Assembly (NCBI RefSeq): GCF_000482865.1
Contig: NZ_AXWW01000026.1
Span: 1-64,000, forward strand
Origin: Actinokineospora inagensis DSM 44258
Lineage (GTDB): Bacteria > Actinomycetota > Actinomycetes > Mycobacteriales > Pseudonocardiaceae
Direction: 5' to 3'
Length of the DNA: 64,000 bases
Positions 5,591 to 34,327 of this stretch are shown here, in pieces. The notes under the pieces were generated by a model. The model saw only the letters and a program-made list of their open reading frames with translations. It did no database searches and was not told the DNA's origin. Every line of letters begins with the position of its first letter. The first letter of the stretch is position 1. Made by a program: the position numbers and the translations under genes.

Positions 5591-7537
5591 TGTGCGGGCT
5601 CAGGAGATCCTTGACCGATCGTTCTCGGGACATGCTTGACGGATTCTCTCCGATCGTGATCTTGTCGCTCTTGATCGAGTAGGCGGATCAGAGGCGGATG
5701 GTTGTGGATCAGCAAGCGCAGGTGGAGTACCGCTACCGAGCAGTGTGCGACGTGCTGGGCGGGTCGCCGATCGGCGAGGTCGCGGCCAGGTATGGAACCT
5801 CGCGGCAGTCGCTGCACACCTGGCGGCAACGCTTCCAGCAGGAAGGCATGCCAGGTTTGTCGGACCGCTCGCGGCGTCCGCGTACCAGCCTGAATCGCAC
5901 TGCGGCCGAGGTGGAAGCGTTGATCTGCCAGCTGCGGCGTGATCATCCTCGGTGGGGTGCTCGCCGGATCAGCTACGAGCTCGGCCGCAGTGGCGTCCAG
6001 CCGGCGCCGTCGCGGGCGACCACGCACCGGGTGCTGGTGCGCAACGGCCTGATCGATCCGCAAGCCCAGCAGCACAAGCGCAAGTACCGGCGCTGGCAGC
6101 GCGCGGAGCCGATGCACCTGTGGCAGCTCGACATCGTCGGTGGCGTGCCCCTGGCCGATGAACGGCAGTGCAAGATGGTCACCGGGATCGACGACCACTC
6201 GCGGTTCGTGGTGATCGCGGCGGTGGTCGCGGTGCCTACGGGCCGGGCGGTGTGTGAGGCGTTCACCGCGGCGATGCGCCGCTACGGGGTGCCCTCAGAA
6301 GTGTTGAGCGTCAACGGAAAGCAGTTCACCGGCAAGTACACCAAGCCGCTGCTGGTTGAGGTGCTGTTCGAGCGGATCTGCCGGGACAACGGCATCACCG
6401 CGCGGCTGACCAAGCCCCGCTCACCGACGACCACCGGCAAGATCGAGCGGTTCCACAAGACGCTGCGCGAGGAGTTCCTCGACCATGTCGCACCGTTCGA
6501 GTCCATCACCGCCGCGCAGGAAGCCATCGACGGGTGGGTCGCCGGTTACAACCACCAGCGGCCGCACCAGTCGCTGGACATGGCCACCCCGGCCAGTCTG
6601 TTCCGCCCCAACGGGCCCACCCGGCTCGAAGTTCCCCCGTCCACATCGGACGAAGCTACGCCTGATCTGGCGGTCGACGTGATCGAGCCACCCACGCCCG
6701 CCCCGGACGGGATGGCCGTGGAGTTCGAGGCACGCGTGCCGCCCAGCGGCGAGCTCAGCGTGCTGTCCGGGCGGCAGAAGGTCTCGCTGCACCAGGCGAT
6801 GGCCGGGCGGACCGTCACCGTCTGGGCCGACCAGCGCAGCGTCCACCTCAGCTGCGATGGGCACGTCGTGCGTCGTGCGCACCATCGTCTCCCGGCTGCG
6901 GCCCGAGGATCTTCGCCACCTGCTGATGCGCGGAGCCCGCACCGCCGGACCACAGCCAGCACTACCCGCCCTGCGCCGACGTGACGGCATCCCCGTACTG
7001 CCCGAGGGCGGCGCGGTCGAGATCGAGCGCACGGTCAACAAGGACGGTGTCGTCACCATCGCCGGCACCACGCACCTGATCAGTTTCGCCCACGCAGGCC
7101 GCAGAGTCGCGCTGCGACTGGACGGCCATCTGATGCACGCTGTGCTCGACAACGCCCTCATCGGCAGCAGGCCCTGTCCGATCCCCGCCGACCAGCTCGC
7201 GCGGCTGCAGGGCGCCAGTACACCGTCCAGTCCGCTGCCCCCACCACCGTTGCCCGCGGGATCGCTGCGCGCCCAACGACGGGTCCATGCCAGCGGCCGC
7301 ATCCTCGTCGGCGGCCAGCGGATCAAGCTCGGGCCGCGTCACCGCGGCAAACTGGTCACCGTGGTCATCGAGGACACCCACCTGCGTGTCCTGCACGGCG
7401 ACGAAGAGATCGCTGTCCGACCCCGTCAGAGCCTCAAACCCATCACCCGACTGCACGTCACCGGCAAAAGCGTCACGCCCGGCTGACGTCAAGCATGTCC
7501 CGACGACAAAACGTCAAGCATGTCCTGAGCCCATACA
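5591..7537 (+). mobile_element. Decayed IS481-family insertion sequence
   Basis: The transposase gene is bounded by long imperfect inverted repeats. Each end carries GGGCTCAGGA near the tip and an inner copy of TCGGGACATGCTTGACG (5625-5641 on the left, reverse complement 7487-7503 on the right). The right end has a further outer copy (around 7511-7531) that matches the left outer part imperfectly. I could not find a target-site duplication. The right end abuts an RHS gene fragment, so the insertion probably broke that gene. The transposase is frameshifted and lacks a catalytic Asp, so the copy is likely dead. Confidence 0.75.
5698..7486 (+). pseudogene. IS481-family transposase, frameshifted and catalytically damaged
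   Basis: The N-terminal helix-turn-helix (residues 15-75) and the integrase core are easy to recognise, with first Asp at residue 145 (LWQLDIVGG) and Glu at residue 250 (GKIERFH). The second Asp is replaced by Val205 in LSVNGKQFT, where the family has an Asp before the Asn. The frame then breaks because the 7-mer GTCGTGC is repeated in tandem at 6865-6871 and 6872-6878. Dropping one copy reconnects the first 390 residues with a further 200-residue tail ending at 7486. Two independent lesions make this a pseudogene. Confidence 0.85.
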
Positions 7538-7960
7538 CTTGGCGCGAAGTGTGCCGGTGGCCGAGACGTCCCGCATTTCCTTGCGGCGCGACAGTTGGTC
7601 ATAGCTGTAGGCAAGTACTACGCCGCGCGCGTCCGTGCTGGTAGCGATCCGACCCGCGTCGTCATAGGTCATCGTGGTGACGCCCTTGGCCGGATCTTCC
7701 GTCCGTGTCTTAAGACCGCGCAGATCGTAGAAGAACCGGTTCACGGAGCCCGTGGGATCGGTGATGGTGGAAAGATCGCCCCTGGCTGTGTATGTGTAGT
7801 CGGTGCTCTGGTAAGCCCCGGTGGGCGATGTGCCAAGGTAGTGCCGGGTCTGAGTGGTCTTGCCCCGAGCGTCGGTGACCGTCGTGGTCGGTGTGCCACC
7901 GTCGGGCGGGTCTACGTCGACTCGCGCGGGCCGGGTGCTGTGCGTGAGCGGGTGCGGTTG
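7538..7960 (-). pseudogene. RHS-repeat protein fragment cut by the IS481 element
   Basis: On the minus strand about 135 codons encode typical RHS/YD repeats: YTYTARGDLSTITDP, FFYDLRGL, MTYDDAGRIAT and YSYDQLSRR. The coding sequence runs into the IS481 right end at 7537, where the next expected repeat is missing. No continuation is found beyond the left end of the IS, so sequence was also lost or moved. The upstream part beyond about 7950 is also missing. It is one of four RHS fragments in the window, all on the minus strand. Confidence 0.7.
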
Positions 7961-8205
7961 GGGGCGGGCGATGTGGCCGTTGCAGACCGCGAAGGCCACG
8001 GACTCAACAGATTTACGACGATCGTAAAGCTTCTACGCCGATCATGAATCCAGACGGACAGCCCTACTGGACCAAAGGCATGTGATAAAGGGCCAGCATC
8101 CGGTAGCCTGATCCACAGCGGCGGGTGGCGGCCCGTGGGGACCGTTCAGCGGTCGCTGTGCCACTCGTGCACGTTATCCGGTGGGTCGATCGGGGAGGCC
8201 GGTTC

Positions 8206-13331: not shown

Positions 13332-14009
13332 GTGGCGGAGAACCTGGGCAACGTGCTTCCGGTGTACGTGGTCGCGGATGAGTCGGCGTCGATGGGCCCG
13401 GTGGTCGGGGAGCTCAACTCGGGGTTGGCGGAGTTGCACCAAGCACTGTTGCGGGAGCCGATGGCCGCGGCGAAGGTGCGGTTCACGATCCTCGGGTTCG
13501 CCGACGACGTGCAGGTTCGGCTGTCTCTGGCCGACCTGCGCACCGAGTCCGCGCTGCCGGTGTTGACCACCCGGTCAACAACCAGCTACGGCGCCGCGTT
13601 CGGCGAACTGCTGCACCGGATTCCGGCGGACATAGACGCGCTCAAGTCCCAAGGGTACTCGGTTTACCGGCCTGCCGTCTTCTTCCTCACCGACGGCCAG
13701 CCGACCGACGAGCCCGCCTGGCGCGATCCCTACGAGCGCTTGGTGGACAAAGAAATCACCCACGCGGCGCCGAACATCATCGCGTGCGGGATCGGCGCCG
13801 CGCGAGCGCGCACGATCCTGGAGGTGGCCACCCGGCCGGAATTCGCCTTCATCGGGGCGCCTGGAGTCGAGTTGGGTTTGGCGATCGCCGAGTTCAGCGT
13901 GGCGCTCACCAAGAGCATCGTCGCCTCCGCGCGTGCCGCGGCGGCCGACCGGACCGAGCTGGTCGTCGAGCGGCCGAACAGCTTCGTGATGGCCGTCGAC
14001 GTTGTCTGA
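13332..14009 (+). CDS. vWA-domain protein (TerY-like)
   Basis: A 225-residue single-domain von Willebrand A protein. The metal-binding MIDAS motif Asp16-Glu-Ser18-Ala-Ser20 follows the first strand (VYVVADESAS). Further MIDAS residues are a Thr in STTSYG and the Asp in FFLTDGQPTD. The start is GTG 13332, after GAGGGGAGAGGAAG; the frame is open further upstream but without a better site. It overlaps the phosphatase gene by 8 bp. vWA, PP2C and kinase in this order is the composition of the TerY-P triad described for tellurite-type stress and signalling loci. The vWA protein probably scaffolds or is a substrate of the kinase/phosphatase pair. Confidence 0.85.
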   Translation: MAENLGNVLPVYVVADESASMGPVVGELNSGLAELHQALLREPMAAAKVRFTILGFADDVQVRLSLADLRTESALPVLTTRSTTSYGAAFGELLHRIPADIDALKSQGYSVYRPAVFFLTDGQPTDEPAWRDPYERLVDKEITHAAPNIIACGIGAARARTILEVATRPEFAFIGAPGVELGLAIAEFSVALTKSIVASARAAAADRTELVVERPNSFVMAVDVV

Positions 14010-14859
14010 GCTGAGTGATCCGTTGGTGATCGGCACGCCGGTCGCCGTGTTCGAGCCGCGCCCGCCGCACCGCACCGGCTACCGGCCCGACACCGCGGTC
14101 GACGGGTGGTCCAGCGCGGAACTGACCGTGCGTGGCGCCTCGGTGCGCGGCTACCAACACCGCCACGACGGCAGTCCACGGCAGGACGACTTCGCGGTGT
14201 CCTGGCACGCGGCCAGCGGCGCGGTCGTCGCGGCGGTCGCCGATGGCGTCTCCAGTGTCGAGCTGGCCCACTTGGGCGCCACGTTGGCATGCCGCAGTGC
14301 GACCGACCAGTTGCTGCGCCGTCTGGACGAGGGTGCGGAACCCGACTGGCCGGAGTTGATGCGCTGCGCGAGTTGGGCGTTGGTGGAGTTCGCCCGCGCC
14401 CAACCTGGCGACGACGAGCCCGCCGCGCGGGCCGGGCGACTGCTGTCAACCACGGTGGTGGTCACGCTCGTGCGACCGCGTCCGGACGGTTCCGCGGTGG
14501 CGTCGGTGTGCCGGGTCGGAGATTCGACGGCCTGGGTGTTGGCCGGGGACCGGTGGGCGCCGGTGTTCCAGGCGACCGAGACCGACACCGCCGAGGTGGC
14601 CACCGTCGCCCTGCCGCACGTGCCGCACGAGCTCCGGGCGGAGGTCGTCGAACTGCCGGTGGGGTCGGTGCTTTTGCTGGGTACCGACGGTGTCGGGACC
14701 GCGCTGGGCGACGGATCCGGATCAGTAGGCGACGCGTTCGCCGCCACGCTGGCCACTGCCCCGCCCCCGTTGGAGTTCACCCGGCTGCTGGACTTCTCCC
14801 GGGAGACCTTCGACGACGACCGGACACTGTTGGCGGTGTGGCCGAGGGGCGGGCGGTGA
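14002..14859 (+). CDS. PP2C-family Ser/Thr protein phosphatase
   Basis: A 285-residue protein starting at TTG 14002, inside the end of the vWA gene (8-bp overlap). PP2C metal-binding motifs are present: PRQDDFAV (first Asp), AAVADGVSS (Asp-Gly) and LLLGTDGVG near the C-terminus. The final DDRTLLAVW block is typical of the family. It should remove phosphates from Ser/Thr residues with Mn/Mg and oppose the kinase encoded next. The stop overlaps the kinase start (GTGA), so the two are probably made in fixed proportion. There is no membrane segment. Confidence 0.85.
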   Translation: MSELSDPLVIGTPVAVFEPRPPHRTGYRPDTAVDGWSSAELTVRGASVRGYQHRHDGSPRQDDFAVSWHAASGAVVAAVADGVSSVELAHLGATLACRSATDQLLRRLDEGAEPDWPELMRCASWALVEFARAQPGDDEPAARAGRLLSTTVVVTLVRPRPDGSAVASVCRVGDSTAWVLAGDRWAPVFQATETDTAEVATVALPHVPHELRAEVVELPVGSVLLLGTDGVGTALGDGSGSVGDAFAATLATAPPPLEFTRLLDFSRETFDDDRTLLAVWPRGGR

Positions 14860-16328
14860 GCACGGCAACCGACATCCCCGAGGTCGACGTGCGCGGTCTC
14901 GGGCCGATGCGATTGCTCGGTTCCGGTGGCCAGGGCAAGGTGCAACTGCTCGTCGACCACGCCGATGGTCAGGACCCCCTGGTGTACAAGGAGTACAGCA
15001 ATCGGGTGATCGACGAGGTCGACGTGGACGCGTTGCGCCACTTCGTCGGGTTCGCGCACGGCCTGGCGCCGTCCGCGCGCTCGGCGCTGCTTGCCCGACT
15101 GGCGTGGCCGCAGGTCGTGGTCCGCAAGGACGGTGTGGTCAGCGGATTCCTGATGCGCAAGGCACCTGTGGAGTACTCCACACGGATGCGGTTCGGCTCG
15201 CGGACGACCGAGGAACTGGCGCTGGTGCAGTACCTGCTCAACCCGCCCGCCTACCTGGCCGACCGCGGCCTGCGAGTGACCGCGCCGTTCCGGCTGGAGT
15301 TCCTGCACGACACCGCCGAGGCGCTGGCCATGCTGCACGGGATGGGCATCTGCGTCGGCGACCTGTCGCCGAACAACATGTTGTTCAGCATGACCGCACG
15401 CCCACGCAGCTTCTTCATCGACTGCGATGCGATGCGCCTGGCCGGTGCGAGCGTGCTGCCGCAGGTGGAAACCCCCGACTGGCAGATCAGCGCCGTGGGC
15501 GCGGAAGATCTGGCGACCCCGCAGAGCGACTCGTACAAGTTGGGGCTGCTGGCCGTGCGGGTGTTCGCCAGTGACCAACAGAGCACCGACTTGCGGTCGG
15601 TGCCGGTCCGGTTGCGCGCCAAGGTGACCGCGAGCCTGTCACAAGATCCGCTCGAGCGGCCGACCCCGAGGTCGTGGGTCGGTCCGCTGACCACGGCCCT
15701 GCGCGAACTGCCCGCCGAACCCACCGAGTCCCCTGAGCCCACCCCAGAGCCCACTGTCCCGATGTCAAGGCCCGCGACCCAAGCGCGGGCCAAGCAGCGA
15801 CGTGTTGCGTTGTGGCAATGGGCGGCGATCCCGCTGTCGCTCATCCTGGTCGCGGTGTTGGCGATGATCTTCCGCAGCTCCGACAAGCCGACCTCGGGTC
15901 CCGCGCTCCCGCGCTACCAAGGGATCTATCCATCCTATACCCGCCAACTTCCATCGCTCTACGTCCCGCCCATGACCCGCCTCACCCTCCCGACGATGGA
16001 CCCCCTGCCCGACATGCCGTGTGTGTTCGCCGCGGTCGCCAGTCCCGATGTCCACGGCGGTGACGGCCTCACCAAGGCGAGGTCCGCGATAAATTCACTG
16101 GTCTGCGAGGTGAACGCCGCCAAGTTCATCATTCGGATAGTGCTCGAGGAACTCGCGGCAAAAGGCCCCTACGACAGCGGTGGCCGGATCATCGGTTTCT
16201 GGGGCGAGGGGACTTCGACGCCCCGTGCCACGGTTTCCCTGGCGACCAAGGCGGGCGGGTGCGTGCTGGCGACCGTCCGGTTCACCGCGACCTACGAGGT
16301 CTCGTCGGTCGCCGTCGCGACCTGCTGA
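14856..16328 (+). CDS. Membrane-anchored Ser/Thr protein kinase with extracellular domain
   Basis: A 490-residue protein from GTG 14856, overlapping the phosphatase stop by 4 bp. It has a glycine-rich loop (GSGGQGKV, 22-29), Lys45 in VYKEY, a catalytic loop with Asp169 (GDLSPNNMLF, where canonical kinases have HRD-x4-N) and a metal-binding motif FIDCDAM in place of DFG. The kinase domain ends near 285. A Pro/Glu-rich linker, a basic stretch, a single membrane helix (322-339) and an exported domain of about 150 residues with three Cys follow. The motif variants are typical of the divergent kinases in vWA/PP2C triads. The 3' end overlaps the convergent gene by 37 bp. Confidence 0.85.
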   Translation: MSTATDIPEVDVRGLGPMRLLGSGGQGKVQLLVDHADGQDPLVYKEYSNRVIDEVDVDALRHFVGFAHGLAPSARSALLARLAWPQVVVRKDGVVSGFLMRKAPVEYSTRMRFGSRTTEELALVQYLLNPPAYLADRGLRVTAPFRLEFLHDTAEALAMLHGMGICVGDLSPNNMLFSMTARPRSFFIDCDAMRLAGASVLPQVETPDWQISAVGAEDLATPQSDSYKLGLLAVRVFASDQQSTDLRSVPVRLRAKVTASLSQDPLERPTPRSWVGPLTTALRELPAEPTESPEPTPEPTVPMSRPATQARAKQRRVALWQWAAIPLSLILVAVLAMIFRSSDKPTSGPALPRYQGIYPSYTRQLPSLYVPPMTRLTLPTMDPLPDMPCVFAAVASPDVHGGDGLTKARSAINSLVCEVNAAKFIIRIVLEELAAKGPYDSGGRIIGFWGEGTSTPRATVSLATKAGGCVLATVRFTATYEVSSVAVATC

Positions 16329-17155
16329 GGCGTGGCGCCCTTGTGGAGCTGGTCGTTGATCGCGTCGGCCACCTCGGGTCGGAGCCCGCCGTCCACCGGG
16401 TGCCCCAGCGCTGTGGCCAGTCCGAGGTGACCCAGGTCGACCGTGGTCTCAACAGCACCGCCGAACACCTCGGCCGCCGCCCGACCTCGCCGCCAGCCAA
16501 CCACACCGGCACCAGCCGAGACCACCGCGCTCGGCCACCAGAACCACGTCGGCGCCAGGTAGAGCACACCCCAACCGACCAGGGTCGAGGCGAGGTCGAG
16601 GCGCATCCTGGCCTGTCGCACCAAGCTCCGGTTGTCGGCGTCGAGCCGCTGCCAGAGCCTCGGCCACACCAACGCGAGCGAGAGCCCGTACTGGGCGTCG
16701 ACGCGGACGTCCACCAAGCGCAGCCGGTCGCCGATCCACGTGGGGAGCGCGGGCAGGTACCGCTCGGGTAGCCGGGTTCCCGCCCGCACAAGCCGTCGGG
16801 TCACGCGCTGTGCCCGCAGCCGGGTCAGCGTGCGCGCGGGCCACACCAGAGGACCGCGCCAGCGACCCCACCACAGCGACCGGACAATGCCGCCGAGCCC
16901 GCGCGCGGTCAAGCTGGCCAGCCCCGCGCCACCTACCGCGAACGCCGCCCAGACAAGTGCTTCGGTGGGACGGTCCCGCGCAAGGGTGCCCAGGGCACGG
17001 GCGGCTTCGGTGACGACGCGCGGGTCGAACGGATGCGCGTCGCCCTGCCGGACCGCGAGCCCGACCACGGCGAGCCACAGCAGGCCGGGCAGCAGAGTGC
17101 CTGCGAGCCAGCGGTCGGGCAGCCGCTTGGTTACCTCCCCGATCAGGGCCGTCAC
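16292..17155 (-). CDS. Multi-pass membrane protein of the kinase/CHAT island
   Basis: A 287-residue protein starting at GTG 17155 (VTALIGEVTKRLPDRWL). At least three hydrophobic segments are visible: GTLLPGLLWLAVVGLAV near the N-terminus, WAAFAVGGAGLASL, and a pair of helices around LVGWGVLYLAPTWFWW and VVSAGAGVVGW. A basic cytosolic loop of about 90 residues lies between them. The family is unknown to me. It lies 10 bp behind the small Cys-rich gene, forming a two-gene minus-strand operon, and its 3' end overlaps the kinase gene by 37 bp tail to tail. The context suggests it acts in the same pathway. Confidence 0.65.
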   Translation of the reverse strand: MTALIGEVTKRLPDRWLAGTLLPGLLWLAVVGLAVRQGDAHPFDPRVVTEAARALGTLARDRPTEALVWAAFAVGGAGLASLTARGLGGIVRSLWWGRWRGPLVWPARTLTRLRAQRVTRRLVRAGTRLPERYLPALPTWIGDRLRLVDVRVDAQYGLSLALVWPRLWQRLDADNRSLVRQARMRLDLASTLVGWGVLYLAPTWFWWPSAVVSAGAGVVGWRRGRAAAEVFGGAVETTVDLGHLGLATALGHPVDGGLRPEVADAINDQLHKGATPQQVATATDETS

Positions 17156-17165
17156 CGGGGCGACC

Positions 17166-17552
17166 CTAGCCGGTGTTGCCGCGCACGAACCGCATCGGTT
17201 CGTCGAATATCGCACAGCGCGGCGGGCGGGCCTGCTCGTCGCGGTCGGCCCGGCGGGCGCAGTGCCTGCCGGGGCAGCGGTAGTCGCCGACCAGGGTCGG
17301 CGACGGCAGCCAGTCGGTGCGCACCCCCACGTCGGCTGGGTCCTCGCCGCGGTTGGGCGGGTGGGTGACATCGGTTTGCAGGCCGAGTTCGCGGCAGGCG
17401 GCCACCGCCGAACCACCACCCGCGACCTCTGCGACATGCATGTCGAGGGCGTCCTCCCAGAAGCCGCGGGCGGCACGCGGGCGCAGGTCTGGCAGCGCGG
17501 CGCAGAGCGCCGCCAGCGCCAACCGCTCGGCCTCGGCCCGGTCCGGTGGCAC
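17166..17552 (-). CDS. Small Cys-rich (zinc-ribbon-like) protein
   Basis: A 128-residue protein from GTG 17552. The N-terminal half is helical and acidic. The C-terminal part has CPGRHCARRADRDEQ followed by RCAIFDEPMRF, giving a C-x4-C...C pattern that could bind zinc with a His. The gene diverges from the CHAT protease gene across 78 bp, so the two probably share a regulatory region, and it is co-transcribed with the membrane protein behind it. I do not recognise the family. A role as adaptor or sensor for the protease or the kinase triad is only inferred from position. Confidence 0.55.
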   Translation of the reverse strand: MPPDRAEAERLALAALCAALPDLRPRAARGFWEDALDMHVAEVAGGGSAVAACRELGLQTDVTHPPNRGEDPADVGVRTDWLPSPTLVGDYRCPGRHCARRADRDEQARPPRCAIFDEPMRFVRGNTG

Positions 17553-17630
17553 GGCCGTTCACCCCTTTCGAGTCTGTCGCGCGCAGGCTACCGTGGCGAA
17601 GATCGACTCTACCCGGGAGCGCACGCGAGG

Positions 17631-20600
17631 ATGGCGGATTCGCAAGCGGCGGTGCTCGCCGACCTGGGAGCGCGGATCGCCCGGTTCGACCGCGACGGGC
17701 ACCAGACCGAGGTGCTCGACGACGCCGCGCACCGGGCCGCATTGGCGCTCTACGGCGAGGTCGTGGCCGACCGCGCGGGCGGTGTGCCGGTCCTGCGGGT
17801 CCTGGGCCGCTGGTTCCTGCGCCACTACAGCGCGTTGCCGCAGGGGGTAGGGCTGCCGTCACTGCGCTCGGCACGGTTGTGCGCGGGCCTGCTGCGTGAC
17901 CTCGATCCGGCGGCGCTCACTGACGACCTGCGTGCAGTCCTCTCGGGCGAGTCCGACCGGGTGACCGCCGCGCACGCCACGGTCGTGACGCTGCTCGAAC
18001 AATTCGAGGACACCGGCGATCACACGCGGGTTGCCGCGGCTGGGGTGCTGCTGCGCTCGGTGGAGGCCGAGTTGCCCGCGGACCACCCGCTGCGCCACGG
18101 CGTGGCGGATGCGGCCATCCAGCTGTCATCGGCGCAGTTGACCATGCACGCCGACCCGGCTGACGCCGCCGCCTTGCTGCGCGCGGCTCGGACCGCGCTG
18201 ACCACGCTCGTCCCAGACGCCCCCGGGTTGGTCGACAGCGTCAACACGCTGGCGTGGGCGTTGCTGGTCAACTACGAACTCTTCGGCGATGAGGCCCACC
18301 TGCGCGAGGCGTTCACCCTCACCGAGCGACACCTGCGCGACGATCGCGGCAAGCTGGTCGCGCACATCGCCGTGCAGCGGGCCGAGGCGCTGCGGATGCG
18401 CTTCGAGAGCACCAACGACATGGCCGACCTCGATCTGTCCGTCGCACTCGCCCGCGAGGCGGTCGCGACCGCACCCAGCGGGCACCCGATCGTCGGGGCG
18501 CTGCGGCGAGTGCTCGCGACCTGCCTGATCCGCCGGGTGGAACACCTCGACCGGGCCGACGACCTCACCGAGGCCATCGAACTGTGCCAGGTCATCCGGC
18601 CCGCCCTCGGACCAGGCGGGCCGGTGCGGGCAATGTGGTCGGTCAACGAGTCCGCGCTGCTCAACCGGCGGGCGCGCCGCGGCGGCGGGCAGACCGACCT
18701 CGACAGCGCGGTGGCGATCGCGCAGGAGGCCCTGGCGATGTCGGAGCGGCTCGACGGGATCCGGCCGATCGCCCTGACCAACTTGAGCAGCGCGCTGGCG
18801 CTGCGGTACTGCCAGCACGGTCGGCGCGAGGACTTGGCGGGCGCGATCGAGCACATCCGGGCCGCCATCGCCGCAACGCGCGCCGGTGACACCCGGATCA
18901 GCAGGTTGCACGCCCAGATGACCATGCTGACCGCCGTCGCCGCCGAGGGAGGCCAGCCCGGCACCGCCCTCGACGAGGCCATCCAACACGGCGAACAGGC
19001 CCTCGAGGTGCTGGAGGCCGGACACGCCCAACGCGCCTCCGCGCTCAACGCACTGGCCGAGGCACACCGCCAGCGCTATCTCGCCGAGGGCGACGAACAC
19101 GACCTGACCACCGCCGCGGCTCTCTGGCGCACCGCGACGGAACTGCCCGCGGGCAACGCGGGCAGCCGGATGACGGCCGCCCGGTCGTGGCTTGAGGCCG
19201 CCCTGCGGCTCCGCGACCTCCCCGGCGCCGCCGAGGCCGCCACCGCCGCGATCCGACTGCTGCCGATACTGGCCGAGCGCGGGCTGGACCGGGCCGGTCA
19301 GGAGCGCAGACTGGCTGACGTCGCCGGGCTCGCAGGCCAAGCCGCCGCACTCGCCATACACATGGGAAACCCGGAGCACGCGGTCGAACTGACCGAACAG
19401 GGCCGCACAGTCCTGTGGCGCCAGGCCGTGCAGACCCGCGGCGACCTGTCGGTGTTACGCGCGGTGGCCCCAGAACTCGCCGACCGCCTCGATGGCACCC
19501 GACGCTCGCTCACGGCCAGCGCGAACGACCCCACGTCGGCCGAACACCACCGCAGACTCGCCGCACGGTGGGAAGAACTTCTCGGGCAGGCCCGGCAACT
19601 ACCGGGATTCGGCGCGTTCCTGGACACGGTCCCGTTCAGCGAACTGCGCCGAGCCGCAGTGGGCGGCACGGTAGTGATCATCAACGTGAGCCCGGCCCGG
19701 TGCGACGCCCTGTTCGTCCGCGCGGACGGGGTGACGGTGGTGCCATTGCCCTGGTTGCGGCTCCCGGACGCACGTCGACGCGCGGACGCTTTGGCAGAAG
19801 CAGGCGGAAACCCGGTCGACCTGCGGCAGACCCTGGTCTCGATGTTGCGCTGGCTGTGGGACACCACGGCCGCCCCCGTACTGGCCGCACTGGACACCAT
19901 GGACGGTCCGGTCCGACACAGGGTCTGGTGGTGCCCGACCGGCCCCATGGCCCTACTCCCCCTGCACGCAGCAGGAAGATACGTCAACAGCGAACGCTGG
20001 CGCGTCCGACGGCGACCTACCGTGCCCGACCAGACCGTGTCGTCCTACACAACAGGACTGGGAGCGCTGATCCGCAGCCGACAACGGCAAGGCCGAGTCT
20101 CGCGGCTGCTGGCCGTGGGAGTACCGGAACGAGAAGGACGAGCACCGCTGCCCGCCGTGGTCGACGAACTGACCCACATCGCCGCCACCGTACCGGGAAC
20201 ACGCACCCTCCTCGGCCCGGACGCCACACCGGCCGCGGTGCTGTCACAACTACAAGGGCACTCCTGGGTGCACTTCGCCTGCCACGCCACCCAAAACCTG
20301 CAACGACCCGGTGAAAGCGCACTACACCTGCACGGCGGCGACCTGTCCGTACTCGACCTCGCCGCCCACGACCTCGGCGCCGCCGAACTGGCCTACTTGT
20401 CGGCCTGCCACACAGCAGGCGGCGCGGTCGCCCTGGCCGATGAGACAGTGCATTTGGCCGCCGCCTTGCAGTTGGCGGGATTCCGACACGTGATCGCCAC
20501 CCAATGGCCGGTGTCGGATCCGATCGCCGCCTCGGCCGCGCAGTCCTTGTACCGACAACTCACCGCGAGCGGCCTGCGGGCGGCCGACGCGGCACGGGGA

Positions 20601-20684
20601 CTGACGGCCACCTCGGCGGCGTTGCGGAAGCGGTACCCGAACGAGCCGGACAGCTGGGCGCCGTTCATCCACATTGGACCGTGA
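17631..20684 (+). CDS. TPR-repeat CHAT-domain protease
   Basis: A 1,017-residue protein. Start ATG 17631 follows CGAGG; the frame is open far upstream but only as a shadow of the opposite strand. Residues from about 130 to 640 consist of helical TPR-like repeats (for example ALTNLSSALALRY, ASALNALAEAHRQRY). A linker with EQGRTVLWRQ leads into a caspase-like CHAT domain. Its dyad is visible: His885 in HFACHA and Cys926 in YLSACHTAGG, followed by HVIATQWPVSD. CHAT proteases with TPRs act as effectors or regulators in several bacterial conflict systems. The neighbouring kinase/phosphatase/vWA triad may control it. There is no membrane segment, so it should be cytosolic. Confidence 0.85.
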   Translation: MADSQAAVLADLGARIARFDRDGHQTEVLDDAAHRAALALYGEVVADRAGGVPVLRVLGRWFLRHYSALPQGVGLPSLRSARLCAGLLRDLDPAALTDDLRAVLSGESDRVTAAHATVVTLLEQFEDTGDHTRVAAAGVLLRSVEAELPADHPLRHGVADAAIQLSSAQLTMHADPADAAALLRAARTALTTLVPDAPGLVDSVNTLAWALLVNYELFGDEAHLREAFTLTERHLRDDRGKLVAHIAVQRAEALRMRFESTNDMADLDLSVALAREAVATAPSGHPIVGALRRVLATCLIRRVEHLDRADDLTEAIELCQVIRPALGPGGPVRAMWSVNESALLNRRARRGGGQTDLDSAVAIAQEALAMSERLDGIRPIALTNLSSALALRYCQHGRREDLAGAIEHIRAAIAATRAGDTRISRLHAQMTMLTAVAAEGGQPGTALDEAIQHGEQALEVLEAGHAQRASALNALAEAHRQRYLAEGDEHDLTTAAALWRTATELPAGNAGSRMTAARSWLEAALRLRDLPGAAEAATAAIRLLPILAERGLDRAGQERRLADVAGLAGQAAALAIHMGNPEHAVELTEQGRTVLWRQAVQTRGDLSVLRAVAPELADRLDGTRRSLTASANDPTSAEHHRRLAARWEELLGQARQLPGFGAFLDTVPFSELRRAAVGGTVVIINVSPARCDALFVRADGVTVVPLPWLRLPDARRRADALAEAGGNPVDLRQTLVSMLRWLWDTTAAPVLAALDTMDGPVRHRVWWCPTGPMALLPLHAAGRYVNSERWRVRRRPTVPDQTVSSYTTGLGALIRSRQRQGRVSRLLAVGVPEREGRAPLPAVVDELTHIAATVPGTRTLLGPDATPAAVLSQLQGHSWVHFACHATQNLQRPGESALHLHGGDLSVLDLAAHDLGAAELAYLSACHTAGGAVALADETVHLAAALQLAGFRHVIATQWPVSDPIAASAAQSLYRQLTASGLRAADAARGLTATSAALRKRYPNEPDSWAPFIHIGP

Positions 20685-22038: not shown

Positions 22039-22365
22039 GTGGCAGAGGGATTCACGGTCGATCTCGGCGCATTGGAGAAGGCGGCCGAGGGGGTCAACAA
22101 CACCCTGGACGAGCTGGCGGCCAAGAAGGTCAAGGACATCGACGCGGACAAGGGCGCCTTCGGGCACGACGACCTCGCGGACACCGTCGCCGACTTCTGC
22201 GAACGCTGGGAGATCGGTGTCGAGCACCTGGCCAAGGACGGGCAGGAGGTCTCGGCCAGGCTCACGCAGAGCGTCGCCGGGTACCTGAAGGTCGACAATT
22301 CGCTGAAAGGGCACTTCGACGGCGTCCTGCAGCGGTCCAGCGGCGATGATCCCGGGGTGCACTGA
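22039..22365 (+). CDS. Small WXG100/ESX-like protein (type VII secretion partner)
   Basis: A 108-residue, acidic, all-helical protein from GTG 22039 with no signal peptide. Two amphipathic helices (LGALEKAAEGVNNTLDELA and FCERWEIGVEHLAKDGQEV) flank a turn, as in EspC/WXG100-like substrates. TRP or Arg at the WXG position is replaced by RWE in a longer loop. The TGA overlaps the ATG of the large toxin gene (ATGA type), so the two are made together. Proteins of this type form a helical hairpin that pairs with the N-terminus of a type VII effector. Confidence 0.65.
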   Translation: MAEGFTVDLGALEKAAEGVNNTLDELAAKKVKDIDADKGAFGHDDLADTVADFCERWEIGVEHLAKDGQEVSARLTQSVAGYLKVDNSLKGHFDGVLQRSSGDDPGVH

Positions 22366-23627
22366 TGGCCAAGGAACTCGGGGAGACGTCTGATCCCAAG
22401 GAGCTGGTTCCGGGTGACGCCGACTCGGTGACCAGCACGCTCAACGCGATGCGGGCATACGGCGACGCGTTGCACGAGGCTGGCGAGGGTCTTCAGAAGA
22501 TCGACACCACCGAGGGGTGGACGGGCGCGGCGGGCGATGCTTTCCGCAAGGTGTTCGACGGCCAGCCCGGCAAGTGGTTGGAGGCGGGCGACTGCTTCCA
22601 CAACGCAGCCACCGCGCTGGAGACGTACACCTCGACGCTGACTTGGGCACAGGGACAGGCGGTCGAGGCGATCCGGCAATGGAACGACGGCGAGGCCGCG
22701 ACCAACCAGGCCAAGGCCGAACACCAACAGGACGAGCAGGAGGCCGGCCACAGCCTCCCCTTCGACGACTCCGTCGGCGAGGGCAAGCGGGCCGCCGCGC
22801 GTGGCATCCTCTCCAAGGCACGTGGCCAGCTCACGAGCGCGGGCGACACCGCCAACAAGACGGTCGGCGCCGCGCGGGACAAGGCCCCGGAGAAGCCCGG
22901 GTTCTGGTCGAAGCTGTGGGACGGCATCACGGACATCGCCTCGGACGTGGGCGCCACCCTGGAGAACGTTACGGGCGCGGTGGTCAACACCGTGGCGTCG
23001 GTCGGCAACGCAATCATCCACCATCCCGGGGACGTCACCGCGGCAGCCCTGGGCGCGTTGACGATCGCGGCCGGAGCGGGCGGGGAGGGCCTCGGCGGCC
23101 TGCTGGACGCGACCGTTGTGCTGGCACCCGCGGGCGTGGCGGTCAACGTGGGCTCTGCCGCGCTCATCGGGCTGGGCGCCACCACCGTCGCGGCCGCCGG
23201 CGGGGACATCCTGATGCACGCCGCGAGTGATGACAGCGTGTCACCGATGCGGACTGACCACACCGGATCGTCCGGTGGTGACGGGCTTGAGCCGCGGGAG
23301 GTCAACCGGCCGGACAGTGTCCCCGAGGTGAAGGTCGACGACAAGCAGTTCGGCACCAAGGTCGGCAAGCACGCCCAGGACTACGGTCTGAACCCGGGCG
23401 ACGCCGAGTCCCGGGCGTGGGTCCGGCAGCACGTCGACGACATCTCCCGCACGCCCAACGAGGTCCGCCAAGGCCCCTGGAACCCGCAGGGTGGCGGGGG
23501 CAGCGACTACTATTTCCTCCGGAAGGGCGAAGACGTGGTGGTCACGAAGAGTGATGGAACGTTCGTCACCGTCCTCAAGGGCGGCCAGTCCAACGGCTGG
23601 TTCAACGGCGCCACTCCGGTGAAGTGA
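22365..23627 (+). CDS. WXG-like polymorphic toxin (type VII effector)
   Basis: A 420-residue protein. Residues 1-130 are a WXG100-like helical domain (WTGAAGDAFRKVF matches the W-x-G region, then QWNDGEAATNQAKAEHQQ). Residues 210-290 form a hydrophobic, Gly/Ala-rich stretch that could insert into membranes. After a Pro/Asp linker, the last 95 residues are a compact domain (KVGKHAQDYGLNP, WVRQHVDDI, RQGPWNPQGGGGSDYYF, VVVTKSDGTFVTV, SNGWFNGATP). The layout is typical of small RNase-like toxin tips of the BECR type; that assignment is inferred. The downstream gene starts 7 bp later and is the likely immunity gene. Confidence 0.7.
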   Translation: MAKELGETSDPKELVPGDADSVTSTLNAMRAYGDALHEAGEGLQKIDTTEGWTGAAGDAFRKVFDGQPGKWLEAGDCFHNAATALETYTSTLTWAQGQAVEAIRQWNDGEAATNQAKAEHQQDEQEAGHSLPFDDSVGEGKRAAARGILSKARGQLTSAGDTANKTVGAARDKAPEKPGFWSKLWDGITDIASDVGATLENVTGAVVNTVASVGNAIIHHPGDVTAAALGALTIAAGAGGEGLGGLLDATVVLAPAGVAVNVGSAALIGLGATTVAAAGGDILMHAASDDSVSPMRTDHTGSSGGDGLEPREVNRPDSVPEVKVDDKQFGTKVGKHAQDYGLNPGDAESRAWVRQHVDDISRTPNEVRQGPWNPQGGGGSDYYFLRKGEDVVVTKSDGTFVTVLKGGQSNGWFNGATPVK

Positions 23628-27470: not shown

Positions 27471-27475
27471 GCGTG

Positions 27476-29089
27476 ATGTCGCACGACGTCAGCGGGTCCG
27501 CGCTCCCCGGCGGGGGGCCCAGGGAATCCGTTGCCTTGGACGGCCACGGGTTGACCTTGGGCGAGGTGTTCCGGTGCGCCAACAACCCCGGTGCGTTCAC
27601 CTACCTCCTGGATGACCGGACGCGGGTCCGGATGGACCGGTCGGTGAGTGCGCTGGAGCGGCTGATCGCGACGGGGTCGACGGTCTACGGGGTCACCACC
27701 GGGATCGGTGACAGCGGCGACCGGCGGATCGCGACCGAGAAAAGCGAGGCGCTGCAACGGAACCTGGTGCGCCTTCTCCGGGTCGGCGCGGGCTCTTGTG
27801 CGCCGCCGGAGGTGGTTCGGGCGACGATGCTCATCCGGGCCAACAGCGCCGCGCGGGGCTACTCGGCGATCAGGCCGGGGGTTGTGCGGACGCTGTTGAG
27901 ACTGCTCGAAGAAGACGTCCTGCCGGACATCCCCGAACGCGGATCGGTGGGTGCCAGCGGCGATCTCGCGCCGCTGAGCTATCTCGCCGCCGCCCTCATC
28001 GGCGAGGGAACGGTCAGGCACGCGGGCCGGGAGACCACGGCGGCGAACGCGATGCGCGAACTCGGTCTGCCGCAGGCGCGGCTGCGCGCGAAAGAAGCAC
28101 TCGCCCTGGTGAACGGCACGTCCTTCATGGCGGCCTACGCGGCCGTCGCACACGCGGAGGCGACGGAGCTGGCGCTGGTCGCGGAGCTGTGCACGGCCCT
28201 GGCGACCGAGGTTCGCCGGGGCCCGGTCGAGCAGTTCGCCGCCGCCGCGCACGCGCACAAGCCGCACCCGGGTCAGCGAGCGAGCGCCCGGCGCGTTGAA
28301 CGCCTGCTGGCGGGTTCGGGCCTGGCCACCGGCGCAGGCGCGGAATCGGAACGGCACATCCAGGACCCGTACTCGATCCGCTGCGCTCCCCACGCCATCG
28401 GCGTCCTGCGCGACACCCTGTCCTGGACCGGCGACTGGCTCACCATCGAGATCAACTCCTGTACCGACAACCCGCTGATCGACCCGGACACCGGGACCGC
28501 CCACAACAGCGGCCACTTCTACGGCGGTCACGTCGCACATGCCGCGCACGCCATCTGCTCGGCCGCCGCGAGCGTCGCCGACCTGCTCGACCGGCAACTC
28601 CAACTCGTCGTCGACCACAAGTACAGCCACGGACTCCCACCGAACCTCGTCTCCCCCACCGACCCTGCCGAACGCGGCCTGCACCACGGTTTCAAAGGCG
28701 CGCAGGTGGCGGCCTCGGCGTTCACCGCGGAGGCGTTGCACCTGACCATGCCCGCGGGTTCGTTCTCGCGCTCCACCGAGTCGCACAACCAGGACAAGGT
28801 GAGCATGGGCACGATCGCCGCCCGGCACGCCCGTGCCGCCGTGCACCTGGCCATCGAGGTCGCCGCGGTGCACCTGCTCGCCTTGGCCCAGGCCGCCGAC
28901 TTGCGCGGTGCCGACAGCCTCGCACCCGGCACCCGGGCCGTGCACGACGTGGTGCGCCTGCACATCCCGTTCTCCGACCACGATCGCCCGCTCGACGCGG
29001 ACATCGCCCGCGCCGCCGATCTGATCCGTGCCGGTGGCATGGGTGGTGACGTCTCGCCTGATCGTCGTAGTCAGGGTTCCGGTTGGTGA
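27476..29089 (+). CDS. MIO-dependent aromatic amino acid ammonia-lyase/2,3-aminomutase
   Basis: A 537-residue member of the histidine/phenylalanine/tyrosine lyase family. The MIO cofactor forms from Ala160-Ser161-Gly162 in GSVGASGDLAPLSYLA. The catalytic Tyr71 lies in YGVTTGIGDSG, and the active-site Asn in NLVRLL, QDPYSIRC and the Gln/Asn-rich EINSCTDNPL block are all present. It removes ammonia from an aromatic L-amino acid or shifts it to the beta carbon. The GDS variant after YGVTTG recalls aminomutases of natural-product pathways more than housekeeping HutH (inference). The neighbouring halogenases and P450 support a beta-amino acid building block. Length is normal; the C-terminal 15 residues look atypical. 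Confidence 0.85.
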   Translation: MSHDVSGSALPGGGPRESVALDGHGLTLGEVFRCANNPGAFTYLLDDRTRVRMDRSVSALERLIATGSTVYGVTTGIGDSGDRRIATEKSEALQRNLVRLLRVGAGSCAPPEVVRATMLIRANSAARGYSAIRPGVVRTLLRLLEEDVLPDIPERGSVGASGDLAPLSYLAAALIGEGTVRHAGRETTAANAMRELGLPQARLRAKEALALVNGTSFMAAYAAVAHAEATELALVAELCTALATEVRRGPVEQFAAAAHAHKPHPGQRASARRVERLLAGSGLATGAGAESERHIQDPYSIRCAPHAIGVLRDTLSWTGDWLTIEINSCTDNPLIDPDTGTAHNSGHFYGGHVAHAAHAICSAAASVADLLDRQLQLVVDHKYSHGLPPNLVSPTDPAERGLHHGFKGAQVAASAFTAEALHLTMPAGSFSRSTESHNQDKVSMGTIAARHARAAVHLAIEVAAVHLLALAQAADLRGADSLAPGTRAVHDVVRLHIPFSDHDRPLDADIARAADLIRAGGMGGDVSPDRRSQGSGW

Positions 29090-29268
29090 GCTGTGTCGCG
29101 CTCGACTCCGCCGACCAGGTCAACTTCTCGCAGGACCCTCCTCTTGAGTGTTAGTCTTTGACCACGATTGACGAGGTCATTCCGAGATGGGCGATCAGAC
29201 CTTCTCGAGTAGCCATCGGATGCTTCGCGCTCGCGATAGCAGCGCCCCACTGGATCGGGGTACTCATT
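29090..29268 (+). promoter_or_regulatory. Former leader of the tryptophan-type halogenase gene
   Basis: This stretch joined directly to the halogenase start before the IS5-family insertion. It ends in CGGGGTACTCATT, where a weak ribosome site (GGGG) would have served the TTG start. No intact gene is seen in it. Confidence 0.45.
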
Positions 29269-30210
29269 GAGCCCTTTTCATCCTGTGGTGGTTTCGTGGT
29301 TCTGCAGTACGTGGATGGCTTTGGCGAGTCGGCCGATGCGGCGTGGGCTGACTCGGACTTTGCGCAGGATGCGCCAGGTCTTGAGTTGGGCGTTGGCGCG
29401 TTCGCCGGGGCCTCGAAGGCGGGCGTGGGCACGGTTGGCGTCCTTCTGTGACTCGGGTTTGTTCTTGCCCTTGTAGGGGGTGATGACGTGCCGGCGGGTG
29501 GGGTCGTAGCCGTGATAGCCCTTGTCGCCCAACGCGATCAGCCCGGTATCGCGCAGAGCGGCGAGAATCTGCCAGATCCGGGCCGCGGCGGTGTCGTGGG
29601 TGCTGCCGGGCAGATCGCCCGACACCCACAGGATGGTGCCGTCCGGTGACGCGAGGACCTGCAGGTTCATCCCGTGCATCCGGTGTTTGCCCGAGTAGAA
29701 CGGTCGGTCCGCGGCGATCCGGTCGATCGGGATCAGCGTGCCGTCGATCACCACGAAGGCCGTGCCCCGCCGTTTCGCCTCCCTCAGCGCCTCGCGTAGT
29801 TTCGGGGACCGTCGTGCGAGCAGTTCCACGGTCTCGCCGACGTAGCGCCAGCAGGTCGTGGTCGAGACCCCGAACCCGGCGCCGACCTCGGCGAACGGCT
29901 CACCCTTACGCAGGTACACCAGCACCAGCAGGGCCTGTTCACCCGGGTCGAGCTTGCGCCACACCGAGCCCATGTCCCTGCGATGGGCGCGGATCAGACC
30001 GGACACGAAGGTCAGGGTCCGATGTGACAACGGCAGAGCGGCACGGTAGAACAGCATCTGAAGCCCCTGGGTGCTACAGGACGATCTTGGTCGAGAGTTC
30101 TGCTACCAGGGGCTTCGCCACATCCAGGCGTCGACGCGCCGGTGGTCATCAACCTGTTATCCGCAAGAACCCCTGCCCGCCAACACATCCAGCCCAGGAT
30201 GAAAAGGCTC
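29269..30210 (-). mobile_element. Intact IS5-family insertion sequence
   Basis: A 942-bp element with a single transposase gene. The ends are inverted repeats of about 16 bp (GAGCCCTTTTCATCCTG on the left, GAGCCTTTTCATCCTG read inward from the right, differing by one C). A 3-bp direct repeat ATT flanks it (29266-29268 and 30211-30213). The right copy of ATT contains the first two bases of the TTG start codon of the halogenase gene. Everything needed for activity appears present. Confidence 0.85.
29278..30057 (-). CDS. IS5-family transposase
   Basis: A 259-residue transposase starting at ATG 30057. It has a helix-turn-helix segment (PFAEVGAGFGVSTTTCWRYV) and a DDE catalytic core: Asp in VVIDGTLIPI, Asp in ALGDKGYHG and Glu in GPGERANAQLKTW. 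The protein is complete and without frameshifts, unlike the other IS5-like remnants in the window, and its sequence differs from them. It is transcribed away from the halogenase. It probably moves the element by cut-and-paste with a 3-bp target duplication. Confidence 0.9.
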   Translation of the reverse strand: MLFYRAALPLSHRTLTFVSGLIRAHRRDMGSVWRKLDPGEQALLVLVYLRKGEPFAEVGAGFGVSTTTCWRYVGETVELLARRSPKLREALREAKRRGTAFVVIDGTLIPIDRIAADRPFYSGKHRMHGMNLQVLASPDGTILWVSGDLPGSTHDTAAARIWQILAALRDTGLIALGDKGYHGYDPTRRHVITPYKGKNKPESQKDANRAHARLRGPGERANAQLKTWRILRKVRVSPRRIGRLAKAIHVLQNHETTTG

Positions 30211-30211
30211 A

Positions 30212-31759
30212 TTGATCAGGAAAGTGGTCGTCGTCGGCGGCGGTACCGCGGGGTGGATGACCGCCTCGTACCTGAAAGCAGCATTCGGTGACCGGATCTC
30301 GGTCACGCTCGTCGAGTCCGGGAAGATCGGCACCATCGGCGTCGGCGAGGCGACCTTCAGCGATATCCGGCACTTCTTCGAGTTCCTCGACCTCAAGGAA
30401 GAGGACTGGATGCCCGCATGCAACGCCACGTACAAACTGGCGGTGCGGTTCCAGGACTGGCGCGGGCCTGGTCATCACTTCTACCACCCCTTCGAGCAGA
30501 TGCAGTCGGTCAAGGGGTTCCCGTTGACCGACTGGTGGTTGCGGGGCGGGCCGACTGACCGGTTCGACTCGGACTGCTTCGTGCTGGCATCGCTCTGCGA
30601 CGCCGGGCGCAGCCCGCGTCACCTGGACGGATCGTTGTTCAAGCGGGGATCCGGCGACGAACCCCTCGGTCTCACCATGTCCGAACACCAGGGCAAGACG
30701 CAGTTCCCGTACGCCTACCACTTCGAGGCCGCGTTGCTGGCGAAGTACCTCACCGGGTACGCGACCGACCGCGGCGTGCGGCACGTGATCGATGAGATCT
30801 CCGACGTGCGGCTCGACGACCGCGGCTGGATCGACCACGTGCTGGCCAAGGAGCACGGCGAGTTGCACGCCGATCTGTTCGTCGACTGCACCGGCTTCCG
30901 GGGCCTGCTGCTGAACAAGGCGCTCAAGGTCCCGTTCGTGTCCTATCAGGACACCTTGCCGAACGACAGCGCGGTCGCCATGCAGGTACCGCTCGACATG
31001 AAGGAGTTCGGCATCCGGCCGTGCACCACGGCGACCGCCCAGGGCGCGGGCTGGATCTGGACGATCCCGTTGTTCGGCCGGATCGGCACCGGCTACGTGT
31101 ACGCCAAGGACTATTGCACGCCCGAGGAGGCCGAGCGCACCCTGCGCGAGTTCGTCGGCCCGGCGGCGGCCGAGGTCGAGGCCAACCACATCCGGATGCG
31201 GATCGGCCGCAGCGCGCAGGCGTGGCAGCACAACTGCGTCGCGATCGGACTCTCCAGCGGTTTCGTCGAGCCCCTGGAGTCGACCGGGATCTTCTTCATC
31301 CACCACGCGATCGAGCAACTGGTCCGGCACTTCCCAGACGCGGATTGGCATCCGAGGCTGCGCGAGCAGTACAACTCCGCCGTCGCGCACGTGATGGACG
31401 GCGTCCGCGAGTTCCTCGTGCTGCACTACCGCGGCGCCGCACGTCATGACACGCAGTACTGGAAGGACACCAAGACCCGCGAGCTCCCGGACGGATTGGC
31501 CGAGCGGATCGAGCACTGGCAGGTGCAACTCCCCGACACGGAGAACGTATTTCCGCACTACCACGGCCTGGCACCGTACTCGTACATGTGCGTCCTGATC
31601 GGCACCGGCGCCATTGCGCTCCGGCCCTCGCCCGCGCTGAGCCTCACCGACGACACGGCAGCGCGCAAGAGGTTCGCGGAGATCCGCGACAAGGCTCGCC
31701 ACCTCGTCAGCACATTGCCTTCGCAGTACGAGTACTTCACCGAGATACGCCGCACATGA
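30212..31759 (+). CDS. Flavin-dependent tryptophan-type halogenase
   Basis: A 515-residue FADH2-dependent halogenase. FAD binding is shown by GGGTAG (9-14) and the second motif GLSSGFVEPLESTG. The signature Trp281-Ile-Trp-Thr-Ile-Pro286, which blocks monooxygenase activity in these enzymes, is present. The Lys that forms the haloamine should be in KIGTIGVGEAT. The likely substrate is free tryptophan or another indole; regiochemistry cannot be read from sequence. The start is TTG 30212. Since the IS insertion, the purine run AAAAGG (30202-30207), contributed by the IS end, lies just before the start. The stop overlaps the antiporter start (ATGA). Confidence 0.9.
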   Translation: MIRKVVVVGGGTAGWMTASYLKAAFGDRISVTLVESGKIGTIGVGEATFSDIRHFFEFLDLKEEDWMPACNATYKLAVRFQDWRGPGHHFYHPFEQMQSVKGFPLTDWWLRGGPTDRFDSDCFVLASLCDAGRSPRHLDGSLFKRGSGDEPLGLTMSEHQGKTQFPYAYHFEAALLAKYLTGYATDRGVRHVIDEISDVRLDDRGWIDHVLAKEHGELHADLFVDCTGFRGLLLNKALKVPFVSYQDTLPNDSAVAMQVPLDMKEFGIRPCTTATAQGAGWIWTIPLFGRIGTGYVYAKDYCTPEEAERTLREFVGPAAAEVEANHIRMRIGRSAQAWQHNCVAIGLSSGFVEPLESTGIFFIHHAIEQLVRHFPDADWHPRLREQYNSAVAHVMDGVREFLVLHYRGAARHDTQYWKDTKTRELPDGLAERIEHWQVQLPDTENVFPHYHGLAPYSYMCVLIGTGAIALRPSPALSLTDDTAARKRFAEIRDKARHLVSTLPSQYEYFTEIRRT

Positions 31760-33018: not shown

Positions 33019-33073
33019 ACGACTCGACCGGCCGGGGTGGCCGCGGTGACCGGGTTCGACCGATGGAGACGTC

Positions 33074-34321: not shown

Positions 34322-34327
34322 CCCGTC

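Follow-up and report, generated by a model that had tools for sequence, protein, structure and literature searches.

Do a kinase-phosphatase triad and a caspase-like protease encoded side by side in an actinomycete belong to one system, and if so, what could this system do? The question is raised by a block of six genes in Actinokineospora inagensis DSM 44258, which lies within the 64,000-nucleotide stretch of DNA analysed here (the window) and encodes a vWA protein, a PP2C phosphatase and a divergent protein kinase (the triad), together with a membrane protein, a small cysteine-ribbon protein and a TPR-CHAT protease. We found that the six genes are one inherited unit, in which triad and CHAT gene are gained or lost together, and that the ribbon protein, the membrane protein and the CHAT protease constitute a core cassette that is widespread without the kinase triad. 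The observation is solid, and the mechanism proposed for it below is more tentative. The block is laid out as follows:

13332..14009, plus strand: vWA protein, 225 amino acids, metal-ion-dependent adhesion site (MIDAS; D16-x-S18-x-S20, T84, D121) intact
14026..14859, plus strand: PP2C phosphatase, 277 amino acids (start GTG 14026; an alternative start, TTG 14002, gives 285), acidic residues conserved
14856..16328, plus strand: divergent protein kinase, 490 amino acids, with the kinase domain in about the first 285 residues, a helix at 321-339 and a putative outer domain at about 388-490
16292..16328, no strand assigned: tail-to-tail overlap of the kinase and membrane-protein genes, 37 bases
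16292..17155, minus strand: membrane protein, 287 amino acids, helical in its model, a frequent partner of actinobacterial CHAT proteases
17166..17552, minus strand: small Cys-ribbon protein, 128 amino acids, directly upstream of the membrane-protein gene
17553..17630, no strand assigned: 78 intergenic bases that separate the small-protein gene from the divergently oriented CHAT gene
17631..20684, plus strand: TPR-CHAT protease (predicted), 1,017 amino acids, CHAT domain 738-1016, dyad H885/C926

All six genes are real and intact, and the initial annotation of this DNA was right about their coordinates, composition and catalytic residues, as well as about the tail-to-tail overlap of the kinase gene with the next unit. 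Its picture of three overlapping triad genes stands in part: the PP2C and kinase genes share 4 bases, whereas the vWA and PP2C genes overlap only if the TTG at 14002 is the start, and not with the GTG at 14026. In relatives, by our own gene calls, this second overlap is 0 in two loci (L069, L070) and 4 bases in three others (L074, L272, L273). No sigma-70-type promoter match was found in the 78-base region between the divergent genes.

The order and orientation of the six genes are identical in 7 genomes from two families (the window, L069, L070, L071, L074, L272 and L273); the nearest named relatives of the locus are A. globicatena and A. terrae. In a first survey of 61 genomes, covering the own genome, the genus, the family and the order, strong relatives of the kinase (E below 1e-70) were detected in G000, G002, G005, G006, G011 and G050, each beside a relative of the window-type CHAT protease. 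A search with the small protein alone matched the same six genomes, and profiles later revealed diverged copies in G009 and G013. An eighth genome, G002, carries the vWA, PP2C and kinase genes followed on the same strand by the CHAT gene (L072), with a 1-base overlap of kinase and CHAT genes by our own calls. Across 397 genomes of the order, every vWA gene scoring above 350 bits (5/5; G000, G002, G050, G607 and G751) lies beside CHAT. The triad-CHAT block is accessory, since it is present in 5 of the 16 genomes of the genus. It occupies a common site in G005, G006 and G011, and the congeneric G015 (L224) has the same flanks without the block, about 8.7 kilobases (kb) between the matching flanks in G006 corresponding to about 1.0 kb in G015. 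The window block sits at another site: outside the block, no window gene matches the genes that flank L069. The proposal that the triad is joined to the CHAT gene is thus borne out, as a conserved unit.

Across the class, triads are found in other company. The vWA family is present at E<=1e-20 in 34 of 394 class genomes, and none of 36 further class vWA loci (stretches of up to 20 kb each, 8 of them below 15 kb; 32 with all three triad genes) gave a CHAT, small-protein or membrane-protein match with our own profiles. CHAT is likewise missing from all 16 other complete triads fetched in the order sample and from the triad of L076; over the 54 other triad loci fetched, 53 are without CHAT and one has broken CHAT pieces. 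The own genome has a second triad (L075, G000:C48:1-19000), a diverged vWA-PP2C-kinase set with two kinases, a membrane-type protein and, by eye, a TIR-like small protein, adjoined by broken CHAT pieces. A separation of CHAT gene and triad in related genomes was what the initial annotation had named as speaking against its proposal; class-wide the two are indeed apart, whereas within the clade the triads all have CHAT (5/5 in the order sample, plus L069-L071).

The core cassette presents a different distribution. At E<=1e-5, the membrane-protein family gave 46 rows at 45 places in 38 of the 394 genomes of the class; at E<=1e-30, it was detected in 39 of the 397 genomes of the order. The stretch read contains a CHAT match at 34 of those 45 places in the class (32 of 43 fetched places, 29 of these above 100 bits, plus the window and L074), some of these CHAT genes being fragments, compared with 0 of 20 arbitrary 12-kb control stretches. 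The 11 class places without CHAT are L144, L145, L164 (an 8-kb contig), L165, L167, L168, L169, L171, L174, L175 and L177. In 47 of 52 cases we judged that a Cys-ribbon tail finishes immediately upstream of the membrane gene, a count that becomes 50/52 with a loose pattern and 25/52 with the window-type profile. The small and membrane proteins are thus the usual partners of CHAT in actinomycetes, a relationship that the initial annotation overlooked, and the triad is an add-on; cassettes of CHAT, small and membrane genes without a triad occur even within the genus (L274, L275). A WD40-repeat protein is encoded beside CHAT at L275:8296-14453 and an AAA ATPase at L087:7728-15844, which suggests interchangeable input modules.

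One explanation for these distributions is that triad and CHAT cassette landed side by side once and were then co-inherited without working together. That both halves are common and mostly apart, that the genus itself has cassettes lacking a triad, and that G002 carries the membrane pair away from the other genes (L072, L073) are all compatible with such hitch-hiking. We nevertheless consider it the least probable of the alternatives weighed here, for the association has been retained across two families, at more than one site in the chromosome and with genes that overlap tightly, and the G002 triad keeps CHAT in a four-gene run. There is also a second, divergent case in Streptomyces, where a divergent triad found via the CHAT search adjoins a cassette of CHAT, small and membrane genes (L101).

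What kind of proteins does the unit encode? By its family score (Pfam CHAT 3.8e-46; 158.3 bits against a cut-off of 24) and its His/Cys dyad, the CHAT protein is a predicted protease. The dyad had been described as intact, and H885 and C926 are in fact invariant in 34 of 34 aligned CHAT proteins (our own pick out of 58 rows); they align with H585 and C627 of the solved Craspase TPR-CHAT in a weak pairwise match (E ~0.08). As for the TPR part, no Pfam TPR model matches the window protein at E<=0.1; among the 34 aligned proteins, TPR_10 matches 10 and TPR_12 matches 8, and the family profile matches TPR structures. Membership in type III-E Csx29 (Craspase) was rejected, the NCBIfam Csx29 model giving 20.1 bits, far under its cut-off of 300.

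The triad enzymes also conserve their key positions, in agreement with the initial description of each. In the vWA protein, D16, S18, S20, T84 and D121, which we take to be the MIDAS positions, are invariant in 9 of 9 aligned proteins, with Pfam vWA scores under the curated cut-offs (20.4 against 27 and 20 against 23.8 bits). The phosphatase matches PP2C_2 above its cut-off (7.4e-24), and D54, D73, D221, D264 and D265, presumably metal-binding, are invariant in 11 of 11. The kinase falls under its Pfam cut-off (15.2 against 31.7 bits); its structural model has 1,774 matches in the PDB at E<=0.001, all 50 among the matches listed being kinase structures or complexes, and K45, G168-D169, N174 and D189 do not vary among the aligned sequences (12 of 12). 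Judged from the model and these residues, it has a kinase fold with conserved catalytic residues and a putative Ser/Thr specificity. It has one strong hydrophobic helix (321-339), followed by a domain (about 388-490) of fair model confidence that would sit outside the membrane, in which C389, C417, C469 and C490 are invariant in six orthologues. The helix is not itself new, since actinobacterial kinases that have transmembrane helices and lie next to PP2C and vWA genes have been described in another context (PMC7159879), and many other triad kinases that we fetched have one too.

For the membrane protein and the Cys-ribbon protein, nothing scored above cut-off in the family libraries searched, and the membrane protein gave no Pfam family at E<=0.1. 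It shows hydrophobic stretches at 17-35 and 66-84 and a third, family-wide peak at about 196-220, with a basic region (about 92-185) in between, and its model is helical without strands (predicted local distance difference test, pLDDT, 92.1). Bacterial gasdermins have a mixed alpha/beta fold, and a gasdermin identity was rejected on this model and on the empty Pfam search. In the Cys-ribbon protein, C17, C93, C98 and C113 are invariant in 13 of 13 window-type members; when the set is widened to 28, this holds for C93 and C113 alone. Three diverged homologues of the membrane family (L167, L168, L175) lie, by eye, next to genes resembling a succinate dehydrogenase operon and have no convincing ribbon gene. 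At L169:8231-10363 a kinase (Pkinase 1.9e-23) with a C-terminal Cys-ribbon is immediately followed by a membrane-family gene, and the stretch read contains no CHAT; here the enzyme partner of the ribbon-membrane pair may be a kinase. Since this kinase bears the ribbon itself and the membrane gene comes next, enzyme, ribbon and membrane protein can be placed in one pathway.

Taking these features together, we hypothesise that the six genes function together as a proteolytic switch located at the membrane, with reversible phosphorylation as its input, a ribbon adaptor and a membrane partner. This is a reading of sequence, and we favour it tentatively, at somewhat less than an even chance. The four-cysteine domain of the kinase would sense a signal outside the membrane, and the phosphorylation state of the kinase, reset by the PP2C phosphatase and scaffolded by the metal-binding vWA protein, could set the activity of the TPR-CHAT protease. 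The Cys-ribbon protein would act as an adaptor coupling the CHAT enzyme to the membrane protein; once active, CHAT could cleave either the membrane protein or the ribbon adaptor, and the resulting change in the membrane would lead to a stress response, growth arrest or death. The triad would thereby be an interchangeable input module, and ribbon, membrane protein and CHAT the constant output module. That CHAT cuts its neighbour is proposed because substrates of CHAT proteases are stated to be commonly encoded near the protease in other CHAT systems (PMC9729208); that the output lies at the membrane has the membrane partner as its sole basis.

A wider form of this idea, possible but doubtful in our estimate, is that the ribbon and helical membrane pair is an undescribed, widespread output module of actinobacterial CHAT proteases, in principle a counterpart of the caspase-gasdermin pairing. 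The protease (or a kinase, as in L169) would act via a metal-ribbon adaptor on a membrane protein whose helical fold is unrelated, and inputs would be swapped, with the triad in the window, WD40 in L275 and the AAA ATPase in L087, giving a phosphorylation-gated membrane execution switch in this clade.

Several observations weigh against the proposed switch. A triad is present at just two of the 45 places where the membrane family occurs in the class, the window and L074, so that phosphorylation by a linked triad is not a requirement of the core. Small and membrane genes also occur as a pair alone, with no CHAT in the stretch read (L144:9335-10831, L145:9162-10559, L073:9194-10404), and in G002 this pair (L073) lies about 153 kb from CHAT. 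The CHAT and membrane profiles were trained on the same loci that were counted; Pfam, as an independent source, recovers CHAT in 34 of 34 aligned proteins and also in L166 and L170. In favour of the core, distances of the CHAT domain and of the membrane protein correlate (r 0.78 over 35 loci; 0 of 2000 permutations), but this correlation may largely reflect shared species history. Finally, the membrane-protein model has no PDB match at E<=0.001 and no clear match to a known pore former or other fold, which makes membrane damage a guess.

The unit could also serve in signalling. CHAT might cleave the adaptor or the membrane protein to free a regulator, or to alter envelope physiology or development, without any death, in the manner of Csx29 and Csx30. 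We regard such regulated proteolysis as a close rival of the switch, because Csx29, itself a TPR-CHAT protease, relieves a sigma-factor inhibitor by cleaving it, and overexpressed Csx30 fragments are described as non-toxic in E. coli (PMC10028731). It would also accommodate the outer domain of the kinase and the setting of some cassettes or pairs (L139, L144, L145), which lie, by eye, amid housekeeping-like genes. Yet none of the six proteins has a Pfam match to a sigma factor or DNA-binding protein, and a core regulator of development would less usually be distributed as patchily in a genus as this block is; we therefore judge this alternative possible, though clearly short of probable.

Could the block instead be a defence system, given that the initial annotation offered it as a candidate signalling or defence island? 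We compared 133 neighbours of cassettes or pairs with 133 control genes using the PADLOC models at E<=1e-10. The neighbours came from 36 cassette or pair loci, with at most 2 genes per side and proteins of 100 to <1300 amino acids, the window's own flanks not being in the set. Of 137 neighbours, two triad genes of L101, a doubtful long frame of L144 and a likely ribbon gene of L158 were removed by hand, and the last four of 137 controls were dropped to equalise numbers. Neighbours matched 24 PADLOC families (35 member-family matches) and controls 22 (28), in a coarse measure that counts families and members per family and not distinct proteins; the commonest families are the same broad ones in both sets. 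A defence role is not supported by this neighbourhood test, and with no clear excess, some loci lying by housekeeping-like genes and no phage match for the membrane protein, the defence-island reading was rejected.

A more specific version is anti-phage abortive infection, in which envelope damage by a phage would act through the kinase, CHAT and the membrane effector to stop the infected cell. It draws on reports that TerY-P-like modules occur with restriction-type systems and that a variant with an OB-fold is anti-phage on its own (PMC11090510). The patchiness of the block, wholly absent from its site in G015, would fit, as would the transposases, RHS fragment and type VII secretion system (T7SS)-signal protein near the window block and single neighbours of other cassettes, among them matches to a ShosA model (9e-60) and to that of a type IV restriction enzyme (1e-45). 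However, the PADLOC counts show no clear excess, controls also gave strong single matches (PDC-S01, 2e-102), and no PADLOC model matches the CHAT, membrane or small protein at E<=0.1. The membrane protein had no match in phage records, and none was confirmed in viral contigs in a scan with two short patterns only. We consider abortive infection unlikely, if slightly less so than hitch-hiking.

Relatives of the membrane protein were found in ten plasmid records, in three of them over at least 80% of the query. Three plasmids were read by their annotation. In one (L250, pSTRVI01), a fragmentary membrane-family match lies about 6 kb away from an annotated CHAT-domain gene and near a TPR protein of an FxSxx-COOH system; the annotation of the other two lists no CHAT gene.

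Elsewhere in the window, two transposase-type genes (93-1190 and 5698-6984, with DDE_3 and rve_3 matches) lie to the left of the block. A NucA/NucB-type DNase-domain protein (1757-2878), an RHS-repeat fragment (7514-7999) and the T7SS-signal protein, preceded by a small gene (22039-23627), look like interbacterial toxin genes or their remnants. Further on, genes that by eye are ammonia-lyase-like, flavin halogenase-like (two) and P450-like (27473-36109) are possibly a small natural-product cluster.

Actinomycetes have many CHAT proteases, and to our knowledge few of their activators and substrates have been identified. Our comparison singles out a concrete pair of proteins as their frequent partners, one with a cysteine ribbon and the other a helical membrane protein, as well as one clade whose CHAT cassette comes hard-wired to a kinase/phosphatase switch. 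Two questions thereby become testable, namely whether the pair is the substrate of CHAT and whether phosphorylation gates a bacterial caspase-like protease; if both are so, the block would represent a pathway leading from protease to membrane in which the membrane protein is of a new type. Each enzyme of the block is of a known kind, and neither the joint unit nor the ribbon-membrane pair as a frequent CHAT partner was found in the literature or, above cut-offs, in family libraries. In particular, no description of CHAT with a Cys-ribbon and a membrane protein, or of CHAT with a vWA-PP2C-kinase triad, was found in the literature searched, a coverage that excludes most subscription papers.

How does the block relate to systems already described? 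TerY-P combines a zinc-ribbon Ser/Thr kinase with a TerY-like vWA protein and PP2C, for example in CoCoNuT loci (PMC11090510). The triad had been taken for the known TerY-P composition, and the same three families are indeed adjacent here with MIDAS, PP2C acidic and kinase residues conserved. A canonical TerY-P identity was rejected: no C-terminal zinc ribbon or OB-fold was seen in the block kinase, whose C-terminus is a hydrophobic helix and a putative outer domain with four cysteines spread over about 100 residues. We therefore call the triad TerY-P-like; unlike TerY-P as described there, it is linked to a CHAT cassette. Another parallel, in actinobacteria, is the kinase, sometimes fused to transmembrane helices, that accompanies PP2C and stand-alone vWA genes in conflict systems centred on GAP1-N2 GTPases (Kaur et al. 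2020, PMC7159879). The transmembrane type of kinase and its PP2C and vWA neighbours are shared, whereas the partner in the block is a CHAT cassette and none of the six proteins has a GTPase-domain match (Pfam, E<=0.1; no GAP1-specific model was searched). The main text of PMC7159879 speaks of caspases, the word CHAT having 0 occurrences in it. With Craspase (Csx29/Csx30; PMC9729208, PMC10028731) the block has in common a CHAT dyad at positions aligned in a weak match, TPR-type repeats in relatives of its CHAT protein and a neighbouring gene as likely substrate; it differs in scoring 20.1 bits against the 300 required of Csx29 and in an input that would be a kinase and not a CRISPR RNA complex. 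In the EACC1-caspase two-gene membrane-associated system (PMC7159879), as in the block, a conserved membrane component lies beside a caspase-superfamily peptidase. EACC1 is described there as a single-transmembrane protein with short extensions, whereas the membrane protein of the block has 287 amino acids and a helical model, shows two to three peaks of hydrophobicity and is accompanied by a separate Cys-ribbon protein.

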